Positions 40,372-47,109 of a DNA stretch of 64,000 nt are shown here, piece after piece. The translations under genes were made by a program, and so were the position numbers. Source of the stretch: Caulobacter sp. FWC2 (GTDB lineage: Bacteria; Pseudomonadota; Alphaproteobacteria; Caulobacterales; Caulobacteraceae); NCBI RefSeq assembly GCF_002742625.1, contig NZ_PEBF01000001.1:1178001-1242000 (forward strand). Direction: 5' to 3'. The notes beneath the pieces were generated by a model, which did not search any database, was not told the origin of the DNA, and saw only the letters and a program-made list of their open reading frames with translations. Position 1 is the stretch's first letter; each line of letters begins with the position of its first letter.

Positions 40372-40499
40372 AGGCCGTATCACCCAAAGACTCCGCCGCC
40401 GTCCGCGTATCGGGCGCGGCGCGCTGAACTTAGCCTTGGCTTCGGCGTTCAACCGTCATGCGCCGCTGAGGGGGCTGGCGCGTCGTCCACGGAGCGAAC

Positions 40500-42011
40500 A
40501 TGTCTGAAGCCAGGGTCGAGACGGAAGGCGCCCGCGTCAGCACAGGGGTGCCAGGGCTTGACGACATCCTGGGCGGCGGCTTGACGCGCGACCGCATCTA
40601 CCTGGTCGAGGGTACGCCCGGTTCGGGCAAGACCACCCTGGCGCTGCAGTTCCTGCTGAAGGGGCGCGAGCTGGGGGAGAGCGGGCTCTACATCACGCTT
40701 TCCGAAACCGAGCATGAACTCAAGGCGGCCGCCGCCAGCCACGGCTGGTCGCTGGACGGTATCGACCTGTTCGAGCTGGTCAGCGAAGAGGGTCTGGACC
40801 CCGACAGCGAGCAGTCAGTGCTGCACCCGTCAGATGTCGAGCTGGGCGAGACCACGCGCGGCGTGATGAGACAGGTCGAGCAGACTAGGCCGCTCCGCGT
40901 GGTCTTCGACAGCCTCTCGGAGATGCGGCTGCTGGCCCAGAACCCGCTGCGCCACCGCCGCCAGATCCTCGCGTTGAAGCACTTCTTCGCCACCCGCCGG
41001 TGCACGGTACTGCTGCTGGACGACCAGACCGCCGAGGATGGCGACCTGCAGCTGCACAGTATCGCCCACGGGGTGATCAGCCTCCGACGGATGACCCAGG
41101 AATATGGCGCGCAGCGCCGCCAGCTGGAGGTCGTCAAGATGCGGGGGATCAAGTTCCGCGGCGGCTTCCACGACTTCTCGCTCGACACCGGCGGCATTCA
41201 GGTCTTCGAGCGTCTGGTGGCGGCCGACCATCCGGCCACCTTCGTTCAGGAGAGGGTGTCCACGGGCTCGCCGGGCCTTGACTCGCTCATGGGCGGCGGG
41301 CTGACGCGCGGCACCAACACCTTGATCAGCGGCCCTTCGGGTGTTGGCAAGACCACCACGTCGGTGCGCTGCGCCCTGACCGCCCTCGAGCGCGGCGAGA
41401 CGGTGGCCTACTACCTGTTCGACGAGGGCCTGACGACCTTGCTGGCGCGCTCCAAGGCGCTGAGCATGGACCTGAAACCCTATATCGACAGCGGCCAACT
41501 GGCGGTCCGCGCCATCGACCCGGCCGAGCTGTCGCCGGGCGAGTTCGCCTTCCTCGTCCGCGACGCGGTGGAGAGGCTGGGCGCGCGGACGGTCGTCATC
41601 GACAGTCTCAACGCCTACCTCCAGGCCATGCCGGGGCAGAAGTTCCTGCTGCTGCAGATGCACGAGCTGCTGACCTATCTCAACCAGCAGGGCGTGGTGA
41701 CCCTTCTGATCCTGGGCCAGCACGGGTTCATCGGCGAGGTCCGCAGCGATATCGACCTCAGCTATCTCAGCGACGGCATCCTGCTGTTCCGGTTCTTCGA
41801 AGCCGCCGGTTCGGTGCTGACGGCGGTTTCGGCGGTCAAGAGCCGCACGGCCGAGCACGAAAAGACCATCCGCGAAATCCGCCTGACGGAAAACGGCATC
41901 CAAGTTGGCGAGGCGCTGACCGACTTCCAGGGCGTGATGTCCGGCCTGCCGTCGTACCAGGGCAATATCGTCATGCTGGGCGGGGAGAAAAGTCGGCCGG
42001 CGGATGCCTAA
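40500..42011 (+). CDS. KaiC-like double-domain RecA/RAD55 ATPase
   Basis: 503 residues made of two KaiC domains. P-loops GTPGSGKTT (residues 38-46) and GPSGVGKTT (278-286); domain start motifs STGVPGLDDILGGGLTRD and STGSPGLDSLMGGGLTRG; Walker B RVVFDSLSEM and TVVIDSLNAY. The catalytic Glu pair of cyanobacterial KaiC is SE in domain 1 and DE in domain 2. At the autophosphorylation pair it has S421-Y422 (DLSYLSDG) instead of Ser-Thr. No kaiA or kaiB is nearby. It overlaps the hybrid kinase gene by 8 bp, which suggests a working partnership rather than a full Kai clock. GGAG precedes the ATG. Confidence 0.88.
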   Translation: MSEARVETEGARVSTGVPGLDDILGGGLTRDRIYLVEGTPGSGKTTLALQFLLKGRELGESGLYITLSETEHELKAAAASHGWSLDGIDLFELVSEEGLDPDSEQSVLHPSDVELGETTRGVMRQVEQTRPLRVVFDSLSEMRLLAQNPLRHRRQILALKHFFATRRCTVLLLDDQTAEDGDLQLHSIAHGVISLRRMTQEYGAQRRQLEVVKMRGIKFRGGFHDFSLDTGGIQVFERLVAADHPATFVQERVSTGSPGLDSLMGGGLTRGTNTLISGPSGVGKTTTSVRCALTALERGETVAYYLFDEGLTTLLARSKALSMDLKPYIDSGQLAVRAIDPAELSPGEFAFLVRDAVERLGARTVVIDSLNAYLQAMPGQKFLLLQMHELLTYLNQQGVVTLLILGQHGFIGEVRSDIDLSYLSDGILLFRFFEAAGSVLTAVSAVKSRTAEHEKTIREIRLTENGIQVGEALTDFQGVMSGLPSYQGNIVMLGGEKSRPADA

Positions 42012-44043
42012 GCCCATCCTCATCCTGGCGCCGCGAGGGCGCGATGCGGCGGTCATCGCCGAGACCCTGGCCCATGTCGGTCACGCCTGTCAGATCTGCG
42101 CCGACCTTGAGACGCTCACTCGGGCGCTGGGCGACGAGGCTGGCGCGGCGATCCTGACGGAGGAGGCGCTGGCCCAGGGCGCGACCAACGCCCTGACGGA
42201 CTGGCTGGACCATCAGCCCAGTTGGTCGGACTTTCCGTTCATCGTGCTGGTCACCAAACAGGCCGGCAAGCGGGCCCAGGCTGACGCCGAACGTCTCAAA
42301 GGCATCGGCAACATCGTGCTGCTGGAGCGGCCGATCAACGCCGAGACCCTGGTCAGCGCGGCCCATTCGGCGATCCGCGCCCGTCATCGCCAGTACCTCG
42401 CCCGTGACCATCTGCACGCCCAGACCAAGGCCGAGGAGCAACTGCGCTTCGCTCTGGAAGCCGGCAAGCTCGGCGCCTGGGACCTGGATCTCGACAGCGG
42501 GGCCCTGACCACCTCGGCGGCGACGCGCGCGCACTTCGGCCACGCGGCCGAGCAACCGCTGACGCTGGCCGCCATCGAGGCGGCCGTTCATCCGGAGGAC
42601 GAGGCGTTGCGCGCCACCGCGCTGGCCGCCTCGATCACACGGGCCGAGGACTACGACGTCGAGTACCGGATTTTCTGGCCGGACGGTTCTCTGCACTGGG
42701 TGCAGGTGCGGGGACGCCTCAACCTGACCCTGCCTGGCGAGCCGCGGCGGATGTCGGGAATCAGCCTCGACATCACCGCCCGCAAGACGGCCGAGGCGGA
42801 GCTGCGGCTGCTCAACGAGACGCTCGAACAGCGCATCGCCGACAGCATCGGCGAACTGCGGCGCGCCAACGAACGCCTGCTGGCCGAGATCAGCGAGCGC
42901 GAGCAGGCCCAGGCCGCCCTGGTTCAGGCCCAGAAGATGGACGCCATCGGCCAGCTGACCGGCGGTATCGCCCACGACTTCAACAACCTGCTGACCGCCA
43001 TCGTCGGCAATATCGACATGATCGAGCGGCGCAGCGACGACGAGCGCGTCAAGCGCATGGCCGCCAACGCCCGCGAAGGCGTCGAGCGCGCCACCAAGCT
43101 GACCGCGCAGCTCCTGGCCTTCTCGCGCAGCCAGCAACTGGACCTGCAACCCGTGGAGGTCGACGCGCTGATCGCCGGCATGGACGACCTGCTGACCCGG
43201 ACCCTGGGGCACACGGTCGAGGTCCGCATGGCGCTGGCGGCCGGACCGGCGCGGGCCAATGCGGACGCCAACCAACTGGAGCTGGCGGTACTGAACCTGG
43301 CCATCAACGCCCGCGACGCCATGGGCGAGGGCGGAACGGTGACCATCTCCAGCCGGATCTCCGACGAGTGGCACGAGGGCCTGCAGCCTGTCGGCCACGT
43401 CGTGATCGCGGTCGGCGACACCGGCCACGGCATCCCCGAGGCGCTGCTGCAAAAGGTGTTCGATCCCTTCTTCACGACCAAGAGCGTGGGCAAGGGGACC
43501 GGGCTTGGCCTCAGCCAGGTCTATGGCATCGCCACCCAGTCGGGCGGCACGGTGCGGATCGACAGCACCGTCGGGGTCGGCACGACGATCGAGATCTGGC
43601 TGCCGGTCACCGAGGCCGGTGATCGCGTCCGGCCCAGCGACATTCCGCCGAACGAGACCCCGCTCAGCGAGGGCGAGCGCGTCCTGGTGATCGACGACGA
43701 CCCCAGCGTCCGCCGGTTTCTGGTCCAGTGCCTGCGCTCCCTGGGCTACCGCGTCACCGAGGCTGCGGGCGGGCAGGAAGGGCTGGCGCGGCTGGTGGAG
43801 GACCGGCCGGACCTGATGGTCGTCGACTTCGCCATGCCGGGCATGGACGGCGCCCAGGTGGCCAAGCGCGCGCGGCAGGTCATTCCCAAGCTCGGGATGC
43901 TGCTGATCACCGGCTACGCGGACGCCGGCGCCATCCGGGAGCTGGTCAATTCCGAAGCGGTCCTGCGCAAGCCGTTCAAGGTCAGCGATCTGGCTGTCGC
44001 TGTCCGCAAGGCGTTGGGCGAGCGCGCCGCGGTGGTCAGCTAG
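42004..44043 (+). CDS. Hybrid sensor histidine kinase (pseudo-receiver, PAS, HK, receiver)
   Basis: 679 residues, soluble. Residues 1-125 form a receiver-like domain without the phospho-aspartate (AAILTEEALAQG). PAS/PAC domain at about 145-265 (LRFALEAGKLGAWDLDLDSG, EYRIFWPDGSLHWVQVRG). A coiled coil leads to HisKA with H324 in TGGIAHDFNNLLTAIVGN, followed by HATPase motifs LNLAINARDAM, VGDTGHGIP and GTGLGLSQVYGI. The C-terminal receiver has VIDDDPSVRR and D608 in LMVVDFAMPGMDG. No membrane segment, so it senses a cytoplasmic cue. Start codon lies inside the KaiC-like gene. Confidence 0.92.
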   Translation: MPKPILILAPRGRDAAVIAETLAHVGHACQICADLETLTRALGDEAGAAILTEEALAQGATNALTDWLDHQPSWSDFPFIVLVTKQAGKRAQADAERLKGIGNIVLLERPINAETLVSAAHSAIRARHRQYLARDHLHAQTKAEEQLRFALEAGKLGAWDLDLDSGALTTSAATRAHFGHAAEQPLTLAAIEAAVHPEDEALRATALAASITRAEDYDVEYRIFWPDGSLHWVQVRGRLNLTLPGEPRRMSGISLDITARKTAEAELRLLNETLEQRIADSIGELRRANERLLAEISEREQAQAALVQAQKMDAIGQLTGGIAHDFNNLLTAIVGNIDMIERRSDDERVKRMAANAREGVERATKLTAQLLAFSRSQQLDLQPVEVDALIAGMDDLLTRTLGHTVEVRMALAAGPARANADANQLELAVLNLAINARDAMGEGGTVTISSRISDEWHEGLQPVGHVVIAVGDTGHGIPEALLQKVFDPFFTTKSVGKGTGLGLSQVYGIATQSGGTVRIDSTVGVGTTIEIWLPVTEAGDRVRPSDIPPNETPLSEGERVLVIDDDPSVRRFLVQCLRSLGYRVTEAAGGQEGLARLVEDRPDLMVVDFAMPGMDGAQVAKRARQVIPKLGMLLITGYADAGAIRELVNSEAVLRKPFKVSDLAVAVRKALGERAAVVS

Positions 44044-44056
44044 GTCGCGAAAGCCG

Positions 44057-45073
44057 TCAGCCCAGCGGCATGAACGCGTCGACCTTATCCAGCGCTGCCA
44101 GCGGCGAGCGGATCGAGCACCTCAAGCCCTCCGAGCGGTAGTCCACCGCCACCGCGCCGCCCAACTCGTTAGGAAGGGCGGTCTGGACGATGCGCGTGCC
44201 AAACCCACGCCGCTCGGGCGGGCGCACGGTTGGCCCGCCCCGTTCAGCCCATTCAATGACCAACTGGTCGTCGGGATCGATCGACCAGTGGACGTCCACA
44301 TGGCCGTCGGGGGCTGAGAGGGCGCCATACTTCAGGGCGTTGATCGCCAGTTCGTGGAAGGCCAGGGCCATGACCACGGCGGGCTTGGGCGAGACCTGCA
44401 GGTCCTTGCCGGTGATGGTCAGCTGGCGGGGGTGGGTGCTGTAGGGCGCGACCGAACCGTCGACGATCTGGCGCAGGCTGGCCGCAGACCAGTTCTGGTC
44501 GGTCAGCACGTTGTGGGTGGCGGCGATGGCCATCAGCCGGCCTTCCAGGGCGTCGCGCACCGACGGTTCCACCCCGGCGTTGCGCAGCGATTGGTTGGCG
44601 ATCGACTGGATGGTCGCCAAGGTGTTCTTGACCCGGTGATTGAGCTCGTTGACCAGCAGCTGCCGGTGCGCCTCGGCTGTGCGCTCGCCGGAGACGTCGC
44701 GCGAGGTGGCCAGCACCCGGATCACACGGCCGTTCTCCAGAATCGGCGAGACGGTGGTCTCCCACCAGCGCGGCGCGCCACGCGCCGTGGGGCAGAAGGC
44801 GCGGAACGCGACGGCGTTGCCGCTGAGCGCGGCGCGCAGAGCCTGCTCGACGGTTTCGCGGCTCTCGGACGGCCACATATCGGGCCAGTAGCGCAGGCGG
44901 TTACGGCCGTCGAAGTCGTCGATCTCGAGCAGCGACTGGCCCTGGGCGTTGATGTACTCGACGTGGCCGGCGGCGCTGATCACGCGGATGCAGTCCTGGC
45001 TGGCCTCGACGATGCTGAGGAAATAAGCCCCCGCACCCTCCAGAACGGCCTTGTCTGATCCTTCGTCGGCCAC
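44057..45073 (-). CDS. HWE-family sensor histidine kinase with PAS domain
   Basis: 338-residue soluble kinase. PAS domain at about 15-125 (FLSIVEASQDCIRVISAAGH, VIRVLATSRDVSGER). HWE signature: phospho-histidine H146 in VNELNHRVKNTLATIQSIA, N-box HELAINALKYGALSAPDG and the W-x-E in LVIEWAERGGP; G-box RRGFGTRIVQ. HWE kinases commonly act in general stress or light signalling. It converges on the hybrid kinase with a 13-bp gap. Start: GTG at 45073 with AGGGG six bases upstream; a GTG at 45091 would add six residues. Confidence 0.88.
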   Translation of the reverse strand: MADEGSDKAVLEGAGAYFLSIVEASQDCIRVISAAGHVEYINAQGQSLLEIDDFDGRNRLRYWPDMWPSESRETVEQALRAALSGNAVAFRAFCPTARGAPRWWETTVSPILENGRVIRVLATSRDVSGERTAEAHRQLLVNELNHRVKNTLATIQSIANQSLRNAGVEPSVRDALEGRLMAIAATHNVLTDQNWSAASLRQIVDGSVAPYSTHPRQLTITGKDLQVSPKPAVVMALAFHELAINALKYGALSAPDGHVDVHWSIDPDDQLVIEWAERGGPTVRPPERRGFGTRIVQTALPNELGGAVAVDYRSEGLRCSIRSPLAALDKVDAFMPLG

Positions 45074-45262
45074 ACCGCGCCCCTGCCACACAGCCCATGA
45101 TCACCGGCTGGCGCGGGAATTCAAGCAAAGCCTGTGCGACATGGGGCGCCTTCGCGCGTCTTGCGCTGGTCCGGGCGTCAAACCATCTGAATTCGCTTGG
45201 CGCCTTGGTGGAACGGCGCGCTTTCGCGGCTGTTTCGCAAGTCAGGGCTTGAAGGAGTTTCG

Positions 45263-45694
45263 ATGTCCCAGGTCGTCTGTGTCGCCTGCGGGGCGGGCAA
45301 TCGCCTGCCGGAGGATCGCGATCCGCTGTCGGCCAAGTGCGGCCGTTGCAAGTCGCTGCTGTTCACCGGCGGACCGACGGCCGTGACCGGCGCGGACCTT
45401 GACCGTCACCGTCGCCTGACAAAGGGAACGGCGCTGCTGCTGGATGTCTGGGCGCCGTGGTGCGGGCCCTGCGTGAGTATGGCGCCGGCCTTCGCGGCGG
45501 CCGCCCGTCAGCTGGAGCCGACGATGCGCTTGTTGAAGCTTGATTCTGAGGCCGAGCCGGCCGCGGCGGGCGCGCTGAACGTCAGCAGCATCCCGACCTT
45601 GGTGCTCTATCGCGATGGCCAGATCGTCGCGCGCCAGACCGGGGCCATGACCGCGCCGCAGATCGTCGACTGGGCGCGGCGCGCTCTCGTTTAG
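45263..45694 (+). CDS. trxC: Thioredoxin 2 (TrxC)
   Basis: 143-residue zinc-containing thioredoxin. N-terminal zinc ribbon CVACGAGNRLPEDRD with AKCGRCKSLLF, then the thioredoxin fold with active site VWAPWCGPCVSMAP and cis-Pro SIPTLVLYRDG. It reduces disulfides under oxidative stress. AAGGAG lies six bases before the ATG. Its stop codon overlaps that of the convergent 42-residue protein (shared TTAG). Confidence 0.95.
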   Translation: MSQVVCVACGAGNRLPEDRDPLSAKCGRCKSLLFTGGPTAVTGADLDRHRRLTKGTALLLDVWAPWCGPCVSMAPAFAAAARQLEPTMRLLKLDSEAEPAAAGALNVSSIPTLVLYRDGQIVARQTGAMTAPQIVDWARRALV

Positions 45695-45819
45695 CCGTCG
45701 TTCGACGGAGACGGGTCATCCGAAGCGGGACGCTTGGCGGCGGCTTTCTCGGCGGCCTTGGCCGCCTTCTGGCGCTCGCGTTCCTTGCGCTCGAAATCGT
45801 AGTTAGGTTTGCGAGCCAC
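45691..45819 (-). CDS. 42-residue basic protein
   Basis: Starts at a GTG (VARKPNYDFERKERERQKAA), 4 bp after the DUF6481 stop. Rich in Lys, Arg, Glu and Ala with a predicted helix over residues 9-32. Similar short MARKPNY-FER proteins are common in alphaproteobacteria but have no known function. A longer in-frame reading to 45912 lies inside the DUF6481 gene and is unlikely. Probably co-transcribed with the gene above it. Confidence 0.6.
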   Translation of the reverse strand: MARKPNYDFERKERERQKAAKAAEKAAAKRPASDDPSPSNDG

Positions 45820-45823
45820 CGGT

Positions 45824-46180
45824 CTAGTTCCGGGCCTTGCGGGCGGCGTATTTGGCGTCGCGCTTGGCTTTGGCTTCAGAGGCTGAGAGCGCCTTGCGTT
45901 CCTTACGCTCACCGCGCTTGGCGGACAGGGCGTCGGCGTCCAGAGCGGCTTGCGCCTCGATCTGTGCGGCTTCGGCGTCGGCGGCGGCCTGCTTGATGGC
46001 GGCCTTGGCGTCGGCGCGGACCTTGCGGACCTCGACCAGCTCCTGGGCGCGCAGCGAGGCGCGCTCGGCGAAGAGCGGATCGATGCTGGCGACGCGCGGC
46101 TTGAACTTGGCCAGCAGGGCGGCCTTGGCGTCAGCGGCGGTCTTCAGGCGGTCCGAATGGCGGATGTCTAGTGGGTTCAT
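45824..46180 (-). CDS. DUF6481-like Ala/Lys-rich protein
   Basis: 118 residues, almost entirely alpha-helical and charged (AADAKAALLAKFKPR, VEVRKVRADAKAAIKQAAAD, KRGERKERKALSASEAKAK). Families of this composition are found widely in alphaproteobacteria without a function. It lies downstream of the cold-shock gene but is separated from it by a terminator hairpin. Confidence 0.65.
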   Translation of the reverse strand: MNPLDIRHSDRLKTAADAKAALLAKFKPRVASIDPLFAERASLRAQELVEVRKVRADAKAAIKQAAADAEAAQIEAQAALDADALSAKRGERKERKALSASEAKAKRDAKYAARKARN

Positions 46181-46234
46181 GGTCGCTTTCGTATCCGGAC
46201 GCGAGATCGCGGACCGGCGGGAAGGTAAACGAAC

Positions 46235-46265
46235 GCCCGGCCCGGATGATCCATCCGGGCCGGGC
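46235..46265 (-). terminator. Terminator hairpin after the cold-shock gene
   Basis: Perfect 14-bp stem: GCCCGGCCCGGATG (46235-46248), ATC loop, CATCCGGGCCGGGC (46252-46265). It starts 7 bp after the csp stop on the minus strand and is followed by a T-containing run (GTTCGTTT). Confidence 0.75.
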
Positions 46266-46271
46266 TAATTC

Positions 46272-46481
46272 CTAGGCGGCGGTCAGCTGACCGGCCGACA
46301 TCTTGCCGCTGCGCTGGTCGCGTTCGAGTTCGAAGTTGATCTTCTGGCCTTCATCGAGCGAGCCGAGGCCCGAACGTTCAACGGCCGTGATGTGCACGAA
46401 CACGTCGGCGCCGCCGTCGTTGGGTTGAATGAAGCCAAAGCCCTTGGTGGAGTTGAACCACTTCACGGTGCCGGTAGCCAT
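46272..46481 (-). CDS. Cold-shock protein, CspA family
   Basis: 69-residue nucleic-acid chaperone. RNP1 KGFGFIQP and RNP2 DVFVHITAV motifs are present after the start [20 protein letters not shown] precedes the ATG. The 259 bp up to the next divergent gene is relatively AT-rich and probably carries the long csp leader typical of this family; no other gene was seen in it. Confidence 0.95.
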
Positions 46482-46740
46482 GGATGTATTCCTTGCATGA
46501 CATGAAACGCGCGGCCCGAATACGAGCCGCGTGATCAAATTTTCGGAGAGGATTTGGAGAGGCTCGGGGCTCGATCCGAAGAGCAAGCGTGGAGAGCGGC
46601 CGAACCAGTTCGATATTCGATGAAATATACCATGCGCCGGAAGATGGAAATCCGCAAGCAATTTCTGAAGATTATTCTACATGCGGCGATTTGGTTCTGT
46701 AATAATGCGGCATGCTTTTCAATTTCGTGTCTCGTATTCG

Positions 46741-47016
46741 ATGCCAGTAGCCAAGGTTCAGAAGCTTCCCCGCACCGGAGACGGCGTGCTGACGGTCGCC
46801 CGCCAGGATAGCGCCGTGGCCTTCTCCCTGCTCCTCGCCAGCGGCCCCGCAGGGCGCAAGAGCGGCAAGGGCAGCGTCACGGGCGACCCTGACATCCTGC
46901 GGCAGGCCTTCCGGGCCGGCGAGTGCCGGCTGACGCTGGATGACAGCGAGGCGATCAACATCGCCGTGGTCGCCCATACCGAGGGCGGAGAGGTGGCCTA
47001 TTTCGAATTGCGCTGA
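46741..47016 (+). CDS. Small conserved protein of unknown function
   Basis: 91 residues (MPVAKVQKLPRTGDGVLTVA start), no signal peptide or membrane segment; compact alpha/beta composition with SGKGSVTGDPDILRQAFRAG in the middle. It lies 93 bp before ftsW. An upstream in-frame ATG at 46681 would add 20 residues from AT-rich leader DNA and is less likely. Confidence 0.5.
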   Translation: MPVAKVQKLPRTGDGVLTVARQDSAVAFSLLLASGPAGRKSGKGSVTGDPDILRQAFRAGECRLTLDDSEAINIAVVAHTEGGEVAYFELR

Positions 47017-47109
47017 TCGCGGCGGCTTGCCCGCGCTTTTTGACGCATGTCCACTGACGTAGAACGGCGCGGCAAGATTTGATTAACCCTGCGGTCCGAC
47101 TCTCCGGCC

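Follow-up and report, generated by a model that had tools for sequence, protein, structure and literature searches.

The closest described relatives of the locus considered here belong to a family of gene pairs that De Luca et al. delineated in 2011 – kaiC/Nt_HK, their 'dark-blue' group, with Rta_04330/Rta_04340 of Ramlibacter among its members (PMC3164672). According to their account of the family, its KaiC proteins carry SY, TY or SF sites, kaiB is missing, and a gene for a kinase with a conserved N-terminal domain systematically follows kaiC; in Ramlibacter the two genes are co-transcribed, an interaction with KaiC was proposed, and the system was seen as possibly an hourglass (PMC3164672). 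The comparison of domains made there gave 16% for SasA, 10% for KaiB and 19% for a receiver (PMC3164672). A pair of this kind is found in Caulobacter sp. FWC2, whose genome measures 5.51 Mb, within a 64,000-nucleotide stretch of contig NZ_PEBF01000001.1 (positions 1,178,001 to 1,242,000; hereafter the window, whose own numbering is used throughout): a double-domain KaiC-like ATPase directly followed by a hybrid histidine kinase, lying between the genes murD and ftsW. As the pairing was described in 2011, our claim on the locus itself is modest: it belongs to that family, and what is new are the counts of reciprocal occurrence, the exchange of kinase cores, the co-divergence and the receiver fold of the N-terminal domain. 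The first three are absent from the section on the family in De Luca et al. (PMC3164672), and we found no earlier report of any of the four in the open-licence PMC literature.

The likeness to the 'dark-blue' family is close. Here, too, kaiC is directly followed by a histidine kinase gene, in this case with an 8-bp overlap; its KaiC carries S421–Y422, and Ser or Thr followed by Tyr or Phe occupies this place in 112/112 sequences; and KaiB is missing, with no match in the 41 genomes formed by this one and 40 relatives. This last rule is not absolute, as 45 of the 51 pair-bearing genomes searched are without a match. The N-terminal domain of the family (the RtaNt consensus) is equated here with the pseudo-receiver described below by matching descriptions only; the Ramlibacter forward primer matched in locus L143 only among the loci searched, an uninformative hit.

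More distant comparisons come from cyanobacteria, where KaiC is likewise a double RecA-like ATPase connected to histidine kinases, SasA and CikA, through a non-catalytic adaptor: SasA is reported to dock through a KaiB-like domain (PMC5520375), and the adaptor of CikA is a pseudo-receiver, described as binding KaiB (PMC12632262). In Rhodobacter (PMC5520375) and Bradyrhizobium (PMC3899966), KaiC has been described as the neighbour or operon partner of a histidine kinase, much as here, yet those loci carry kaiB. In archaea, KaiC–REC fusions have been noted in six genera of Methanosarcinaceae and classed with the response regulators whose output domains are enzymes (PMC5847659); these signalling hubs join a KaiC-type ATPase and a receiver in a single protein in a few genera, whereas here the two are spread over two genes and accompanied by a kinase. 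Schmelling et al. (2017) considered it very unlikely that KaiC stimulates SasA homologues outside cyanobacteria, the KaiB-like docking domain being missing (PMC5520375).

The real unit at the FWC2 locus is two genes, both on the forward strand. The KaiC-like ATPase (40500–42011; 503 residues) matches PF06745 in two stretches (E 2.6e-71), and the hybrid kinase (42004–44043; 679 residues) comprises, by its Pfam domains, PAS_3, HisKA, HATPase_c and a receiver behind an N-terminal pseudo-receiver (residues 1–139, 42004–42420). The kinase starts inside the end of kaiC, and the resulting overlap of 8 bp – correctly given by the sequence-only reading, like the gap of 13 bp between the kinase and the next gene – suggests that the two genes are co-transcribed in Caulobacter sp. 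FWC2. We assign a probability of roughly 0.6 to the interpretation, drawn from comparison of sequences, that these genes form a signalling unit in which the pseudo-receiver docks on KaiC, reads its state and shifts the output of the kinase. Three lines of evidence – reciprocal occurrence, retention across the exchange of kinase cores, and co-divergence – together point to the pseudo-receiver as a KaiC docking or reading module.

Reciprocal occurrence was assessed in samples of 199 genomes from the family, 337 from the class and 359 from the phylum, partly overlapping, which were searched with KaiC and with alignment A1 – the first 139 residues of 33 partner kinases, with 15 invariant columns. 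Distinct hits were counted, so that rows of the class and phylum samples were omitted where an earlier sample had contributed them; a neighbour had to share contig and strand with its partner, at a spacing of −60 to 400 bases. The cut-off was at least 41% identity for this type of KaiC and at least 80 bits for the pseudo-receiver, and the best candidates of each genome were scored (11–20 for the pseudo-receiver, 4–7 for KaiC). A KaiC of this type was followed by a pseudo-receiver in 65/66 cases in the family, 19/20 in the class and 27/27 in the phylum, or 111 of 113; conversely, a pseudo-receiver lay directly after such a KaiC in 65/66, 19/19 and 27/28, again 111 of 113. KaiC proteins below 41% identity were never followed by one (0/50). 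As far as the records tell, all but two rows of A1 come from Caulobacteraceae, so that the class and phylum samples provide the independent counts, and in these 46 of 47 pseudo-receivers outside Caulobacteraceae stood beside KaiC. The exceptions are few: the two KaiC genes without a pseudo-receiver are in G078, where the frame is broken at the end, and G294, at a contig edge, and the two pseudo-receivers without KaiC are in G220, with a decayed start, and G823, an orphan scoring 86 bits. An intact kinase without a pseudo-receiver was not seen after any of the 113 KaiC genes of this type, with G078 and G294 set aside, and no natural fusion of KaiC and pseudo-receiver occurs among 119 pairs. With 111 of 113 in either direction, the pairing recurs across Pseudomonadota and is not restricted to one strain, and the proposal of the sequence-only reading that ATPase and hybrid kinase belong together in one unit is supported, with the pseudo-receiver as the retained part.

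Some loci in these samples deserve separate mention. At L173 (G220:C10), where the front domain of the kinase is decayed at its start, no KaiC match appears in 3 kb upstream or in the 7 kb read, and the locus is perhaps a unit being lost. In two genomes (G680:C2:463215-465501 and G695:C1:14524-16231), KaiB adjoins a KaiC of another type (28–31% identity), and the pseudo-receiver kinase adjoins the type considered here. At L095 and L097, where KaiC is again of another type (28–32% identity), the next gene resembles that of the HWE kinase weakly and has no pseudo-receiver match.

The second result concerns what the pseudo-receiver is. An AlphaFold2 model of residues 1–139 (predicted local distance difference test, pLDDT, 89.6; predicted template modelling score, pTM, 0.86) has a receiver fold by structure comparison with Foldseek and VIA-align. 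The sequences aligned here exclude L064 and L106 as duplicates from the sets of 112 KaiC proteins, 109 rows and 96 pairs, from which four Caulobacter loci (L059, L060, L065 and L066) are also missing; the latter two sets further omit L130, L101, which is cut by a contig edge, and L136, which has a stretch of X. In the 109 rows, no acidic residue occurs at positions 9 and 10, those of the acid pair (0/109). Position 52 is T, A, V or S, and at position 53 78 of the 109 have E and 11 have D; the strand ends of the model were used to decide which of 52 and 53 corresponds to the phospho-acceptor. The domain thus combines a receiver fold with lack of both the catalytic acid pair and the phospho-acceptor, which bears out the earlier description of a degenerate N-terminal receiver. 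Six of its residues – D14, W74, R109, P110, R127 and Q130 – are invariant in 109/109. A KaiB-like N-terminal domain was considered and rejected: neither KaiB nor SasA is among the 50 Foldseek and 50 VIA-align matches listed, and the positive match to receivers decides. The hybrid kinase therefore does not have the N-terminal KaiB-like, thioredoxin-like domain of the SasA type, and, unlike in the view of 2011, in which SasA, KaiB and receiver were compared, the predicted structure here is a receiver fold. A search for the pseudo-receiver in phages gave no match.

Behind this domain, the kinases differ. Typing by H-box pattern at 121 loci, duplicates included, gave 106 HisKA and 12 HWE kinases and 3 unclassed. 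Pfam found HWE_HK in 6 of 10 proteins submitted (L078, L080, L134, L157, L171 and L144), among them all five pattern-typed HWE kinases that were submitted, out of 12 such, and L144, which the pattern had left untyped; four of these six have no PAS match. The HWE/HisKA label changes four times on the tree built from 109 KaiC rows, all four forced by well supported branches, and three times when two long-branch rows are removed (bootstrap range 3–4); on the pseudo-receiver tree, which is short and poorly resolved, it changes five times, two of them forced. As reconstructed on the KaiC tree, then, the kinase core has been swapped between HisKA and HWE at least three times with the pseudo-receiver kept. 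The segment between the two is labile as well: a PAS-sized insert – taken as missing where fewer than 100 residues separate residue 139 from the H-box – shows 14 gains or losses by parsimony, nine of them forced. Of 109 kinases, 71 do not have it, which leaves them with the pseudo-receiver as the only evident input domain. Divergence follows the same line. Across 96 HisKA pairs, pairwise distances in KaiC correlate with those in the pseudo-receiver at 0.854 and with those in the kinase core at 0.572, and the corresponding partial correlations are 0.775 and −0.071; with the pseudo-receiver taken into account, the core no longer tracks KaiC.

The ATPase itself retains the basic machinery of its superfamily. 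Each of the two RecA-like domains has, as in PF06745 proteins at large, a Walker A motif (from residue 38 in the first and 278 in the second) and a Walker B motif (at 134 and 365, respectively), and the best relative in the PDB is a KaiC, 8zn5 (E 1.5e-51). No variation is seen among 112 KaiC sequences at the P-loop lysines, the Walker B aspartates or K213/R215; K447/R449 are present in 111 of them, the remaining one having a gap there. In the segment S416–Y422 (41745–41765, forward strand), the alignment places S416, S421 and Y422 opposite the residues that we take to be T426, S431 and T432 of cyanobacterial KaiC. Position 416 is variable (S 40, T 38, A 28, other 6); at 421, Ser (58) and Thr (54) are about equally common, and at 422 Tyr (108) far outnumbers Phe (4). 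The CI E77 site holds Ser in 105 and Ala in 7, the CII E318 site Asp in 110 and Glu in 2; in the FWC2 protein these sites read S68–E69 and D308–E309. Clock KaiC proteins presumably have Ser or Thr at the T432 site and the Glu pairs E77/E78 and E318/E319, whereas here Y422, S68–E69 and D308–E309 stand in their places, and the protein falls below the cut-offs of the curated clock families TIGR02655 (145.6 versus 546.25 bits) and PRK09302 (238.8 versus 408). With a hydroxyl retained without exception at the S431 site and an aromatic residue at the T432 site, the protein would seem better explained as an ATPase that has perhaps a single regulatory Ser/Thr site than as a full two-site clock. The motifs and the altered phosphosite pointed out by the sequence-only reading – both P-loops, both Walker B sites, Ser421–Tyr422 – are confirmed by the alignment, and so is the lack of a nearby kaiB: a search with PF07689 found no match in the genome and its 40 relatives, no search aimed at KaiA being made, and in the six pair-bearing genomes that do have a match, KaiB and the pair are on different contigs or at least 290 kb apart. 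In all, this system differs from the cyanobacterial one in having no KaiB match in its own genome, a tyrosine at the T432 site and altered catalytic Glu pairs.

In the mechanism we favour, the KaiC-like protein – a hexamer by analogy – would change state as its ATPases work and possibly also when S421 is phosphorylated, and the pseudo-receiver, to judge from its evolution, would dock on one of these states and read it. As the long last helix of the pseudo-receiver runs on towards the kinase core, docking would shift the balance between kinase and phosphatase activity, and the signal would leave by way of the histidine and, in the HisKA types, the C-terminal receiver for a further partner. Outside precedents for such a contact are the binding of KaiB by the CikA pseudo-receiver (PMC12632262) and the KaiC–REC fusions of Methanosarcinaceae (PMC5847659). 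The unit would more likely sense energy or stress state than act as a clock. Whether the pseudo-receiver is a dedicated, portable plug for reading KaiC, unlike SasA's domain in fold and set before two types of kinase, we regard as an even bet. If it is, KaiC outside cyanobacteria would have an output route of its own that needs neither KaiB nor a SasA domain. KaiC relatives are widespread there, and the family offers a different candidate docking domain; with the invariant W74, R109, R127 and Q130 as mutation targets and the natural kinase exchanges as controls, KaiC signalling in other bacteria becomes directly testable.

Several observations weigh against this mechanism. Along the DNA, the pseudo-receiver lies closer to kaiC than the kinase core does, and linkage alone could raise its correlation with KaiC, or produce part of it. 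The PAS-sized insert of 38 of the 109 kinases could hold the main input. Weak pseudo-receiver matches, below 80 bits, stand beside KaiC in none of six cases, and few top candidates were scored per genome, so weak copies may be missed. Finally, an orphan kinase at L172 with a weak copy of the pseudo-receiver, scoring 86 bits, has no KaiC match within the 9 kb read; this hybrid kinase (L172:1830-3893, at G823:C21) comes from a genome that also holds a full pair at C12, whose KaiC it could read in trans.

The strongest rival keeps the contact and reverses the direction: information would pass from the PAS domain and the kinase through the pseudo-receiver to KaiC as the effector. The archaeal KaiC–REC fusions, ranked as they are among regulators with enzymatic output (PMC5847659), would fit such an arrangement, as would the receiver genes that, according to De Luca et al., frequently follow the KaiC genes of their third group (PMC3164672), and no response regulator is conserved beside the pair. 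We nonetheless think it unlikely, as the 71 kinases without a PAS-sized insert have no evident input of their own and the parts that have been exchanged are the catalytic half and its output receiver. Doubtful, too, is the notion of operon partners that never touch, with the pseudo-receiver binding a small molecule or its own core and KaiC acting elsewhere in the response. The pseudo-receiver of Caulobacter ShkA, which is reported to bind both its own HisKA domain and cyclic di-GMP (c-di-GMP; PMC12632262), is a model for it; here, however, the pseudo-receiver stays while the core that it would have to contact swaps between two kinase types, and its divergence tracks KaiC, not the core.

Improbable in our judgement is a rudimentary timer of the hourglass kind proposed for Ramlibacter (PMC3164672), in which KaiC phosphorylation would change over hours and the kinase would read it. 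The reasoning of De Luca et al. (PMC3164672) and the constancy of the site – Ser or Thr at 421 throughout, Tyr at 422 in 108/112 – count in its favour, and against it stand the aromatic residue at the T432 site (Tyr or Phe in 112/112), the Ser or Ala at the E77 site (112/112) and the Asp at the E318 site (110/112), as well as the distribution of KaiB given above. A study of Pseudomonas KaiC (Terrettaz 2023), a protein possibly of another type, is, moreover, cited for roles in stress and biofilms and for no circadian evidence (PMC11832031, PMC11372060). Very improbable, finally, is a three-gene unit that takes in the neighbouring HWE kinase and is tied to division by its place between murD and ftsW. 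The order of genes in the window and in Caulobacter sp. 602-1 would agree with it, but these are two of 16 Caulobacter genomes; the junction is variable and holds other genes elsewhere, an orthologue of the HWE kinase stands there without KaiC in L176, L177 and L178, and a second intact copy of the pair lies elsewhere in the FWC2 genome. The sequence-only reading had counted the HWE kinase into the signalling unit and had speculated on a link to division from position, and neither idea is supported by these comparisons; the kinase as a third part was rejected on the strength of the KaiC-free loci.

That kinase is best treated as a neighbour only: a PAS_4/HWE protein of 338 residues (44057–45073, reverse strand; PF07536, E 3.1e-27) whose gene ends 13 bp from that of the hybrid kinase. 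The positions of all three reading frames and of murD and ftsW had been correctly given at the outset, as had that of murG. Both kinases had also been called soluble, and indeed no window of 19 residues with a mean hydropathy of at least 1.6 is found in either of them or in KaiC, against 55 in FtsW as a control. Among 53 loci, this HWE gene or its orthologue adjoins KaiC nowhere but at the FWC2 locus and at L021/L064 of Caulobacter sp. 602-1, the closest named relative by KaiC (95% identity). At L022 and L024 (duplicates L065 and L059; Caulobacter zeae and C. radicis), an HWE kinase on the other strand is found two genes downstream of the pair; it is 31% identical to that of the window over 235 residues and, by identity, no orthologue.

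The murD–ftsW distance ranges from about 30 bp to 6.8 kb in the 16 Caulobacter genomes, and none of the other 14 holds the pair there, 11 of their junctions having been read (L176–L186) and three having gaps below 0.5 kb. After murD, in place of kaiC, L176 and L177 have a gene for a ClC-type chloride channel by Pfam and L178 a gene of similar size; more generally, the content of the junction (40372–47109 in the window; L176–L186) varies, with the KaiC pair, a ClC-type channel, a DDE transposase or unnamed genes in different genomes. The pair thus has no conserved place between murD and ftsW and does not appear to belong to the dcw cluster. Given this variability and the presence of the HWE gene there alone, the KaiC pair would appear to be a later arrival, and its place among cell-division genes looks accidental.

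Around the pair, little else is constant. In nearly all of the 53 loci read, a histidine kinase comes after KaiC on the same strand, and the surroundings vary by genome. No conserved third gene or response regulator emerged from in-house gene calls, the largest related group accounting for 3 of 100 genes called downstream and 5 of 103 upstream, where many loci offered just 1.5 kb before KaiC. The second intact copy in FWC2 (C1:2923835-2925334; L058, L187) has a KaiC 94% identical to the first, and DNA homology between the copies spans 40424–44027, that is, from 76 bp 5' of kaiC to a point shortly before the kinase gene ends. The ratio of non-synonymous to synonymous substitution (dN/dS) between them is lowest in KaiC (0.07), higher in the pseudo-receiver (0.16) and intermediate in the remainder of the kinase (0.10), which indicates purifying selection. 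The 76-bp leader with which the homologous block begins (40424–40499, forward strand) may carry expression signals of the unit's own; a promoter scan found no sigma-70-like site in it, and no promoter or terminator was found by scanning 5' of kaiC. Within the two genes there are no striking repeats. The second copy is flanked upstream by a fragment of an integrase-family gene (PF00589) and on its other side by a beta-lactamase-family gene (PF00144).

Pairs of this kind are also found on plasmids. KaiC matches 249 plasmid records (E 1e-40, other KaiC types included) and the pseudo-receiver 146 (E 1e-8); among the 40 matches listed for each, 19 records are common to both and hold KaiC and the pseudo-receiver side by side. 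Plasmids of Loktanella salsilacus, Sphingomonas melonis TY and Pacificitalea manganoxidans are named examples of carriers. On plas2 of Loktanella salsilacus (L188), genes for a PAS protein, KaiC, an HWE kinase and a response regulator stand in a row, the last of these being a candidate for the missing output partner.

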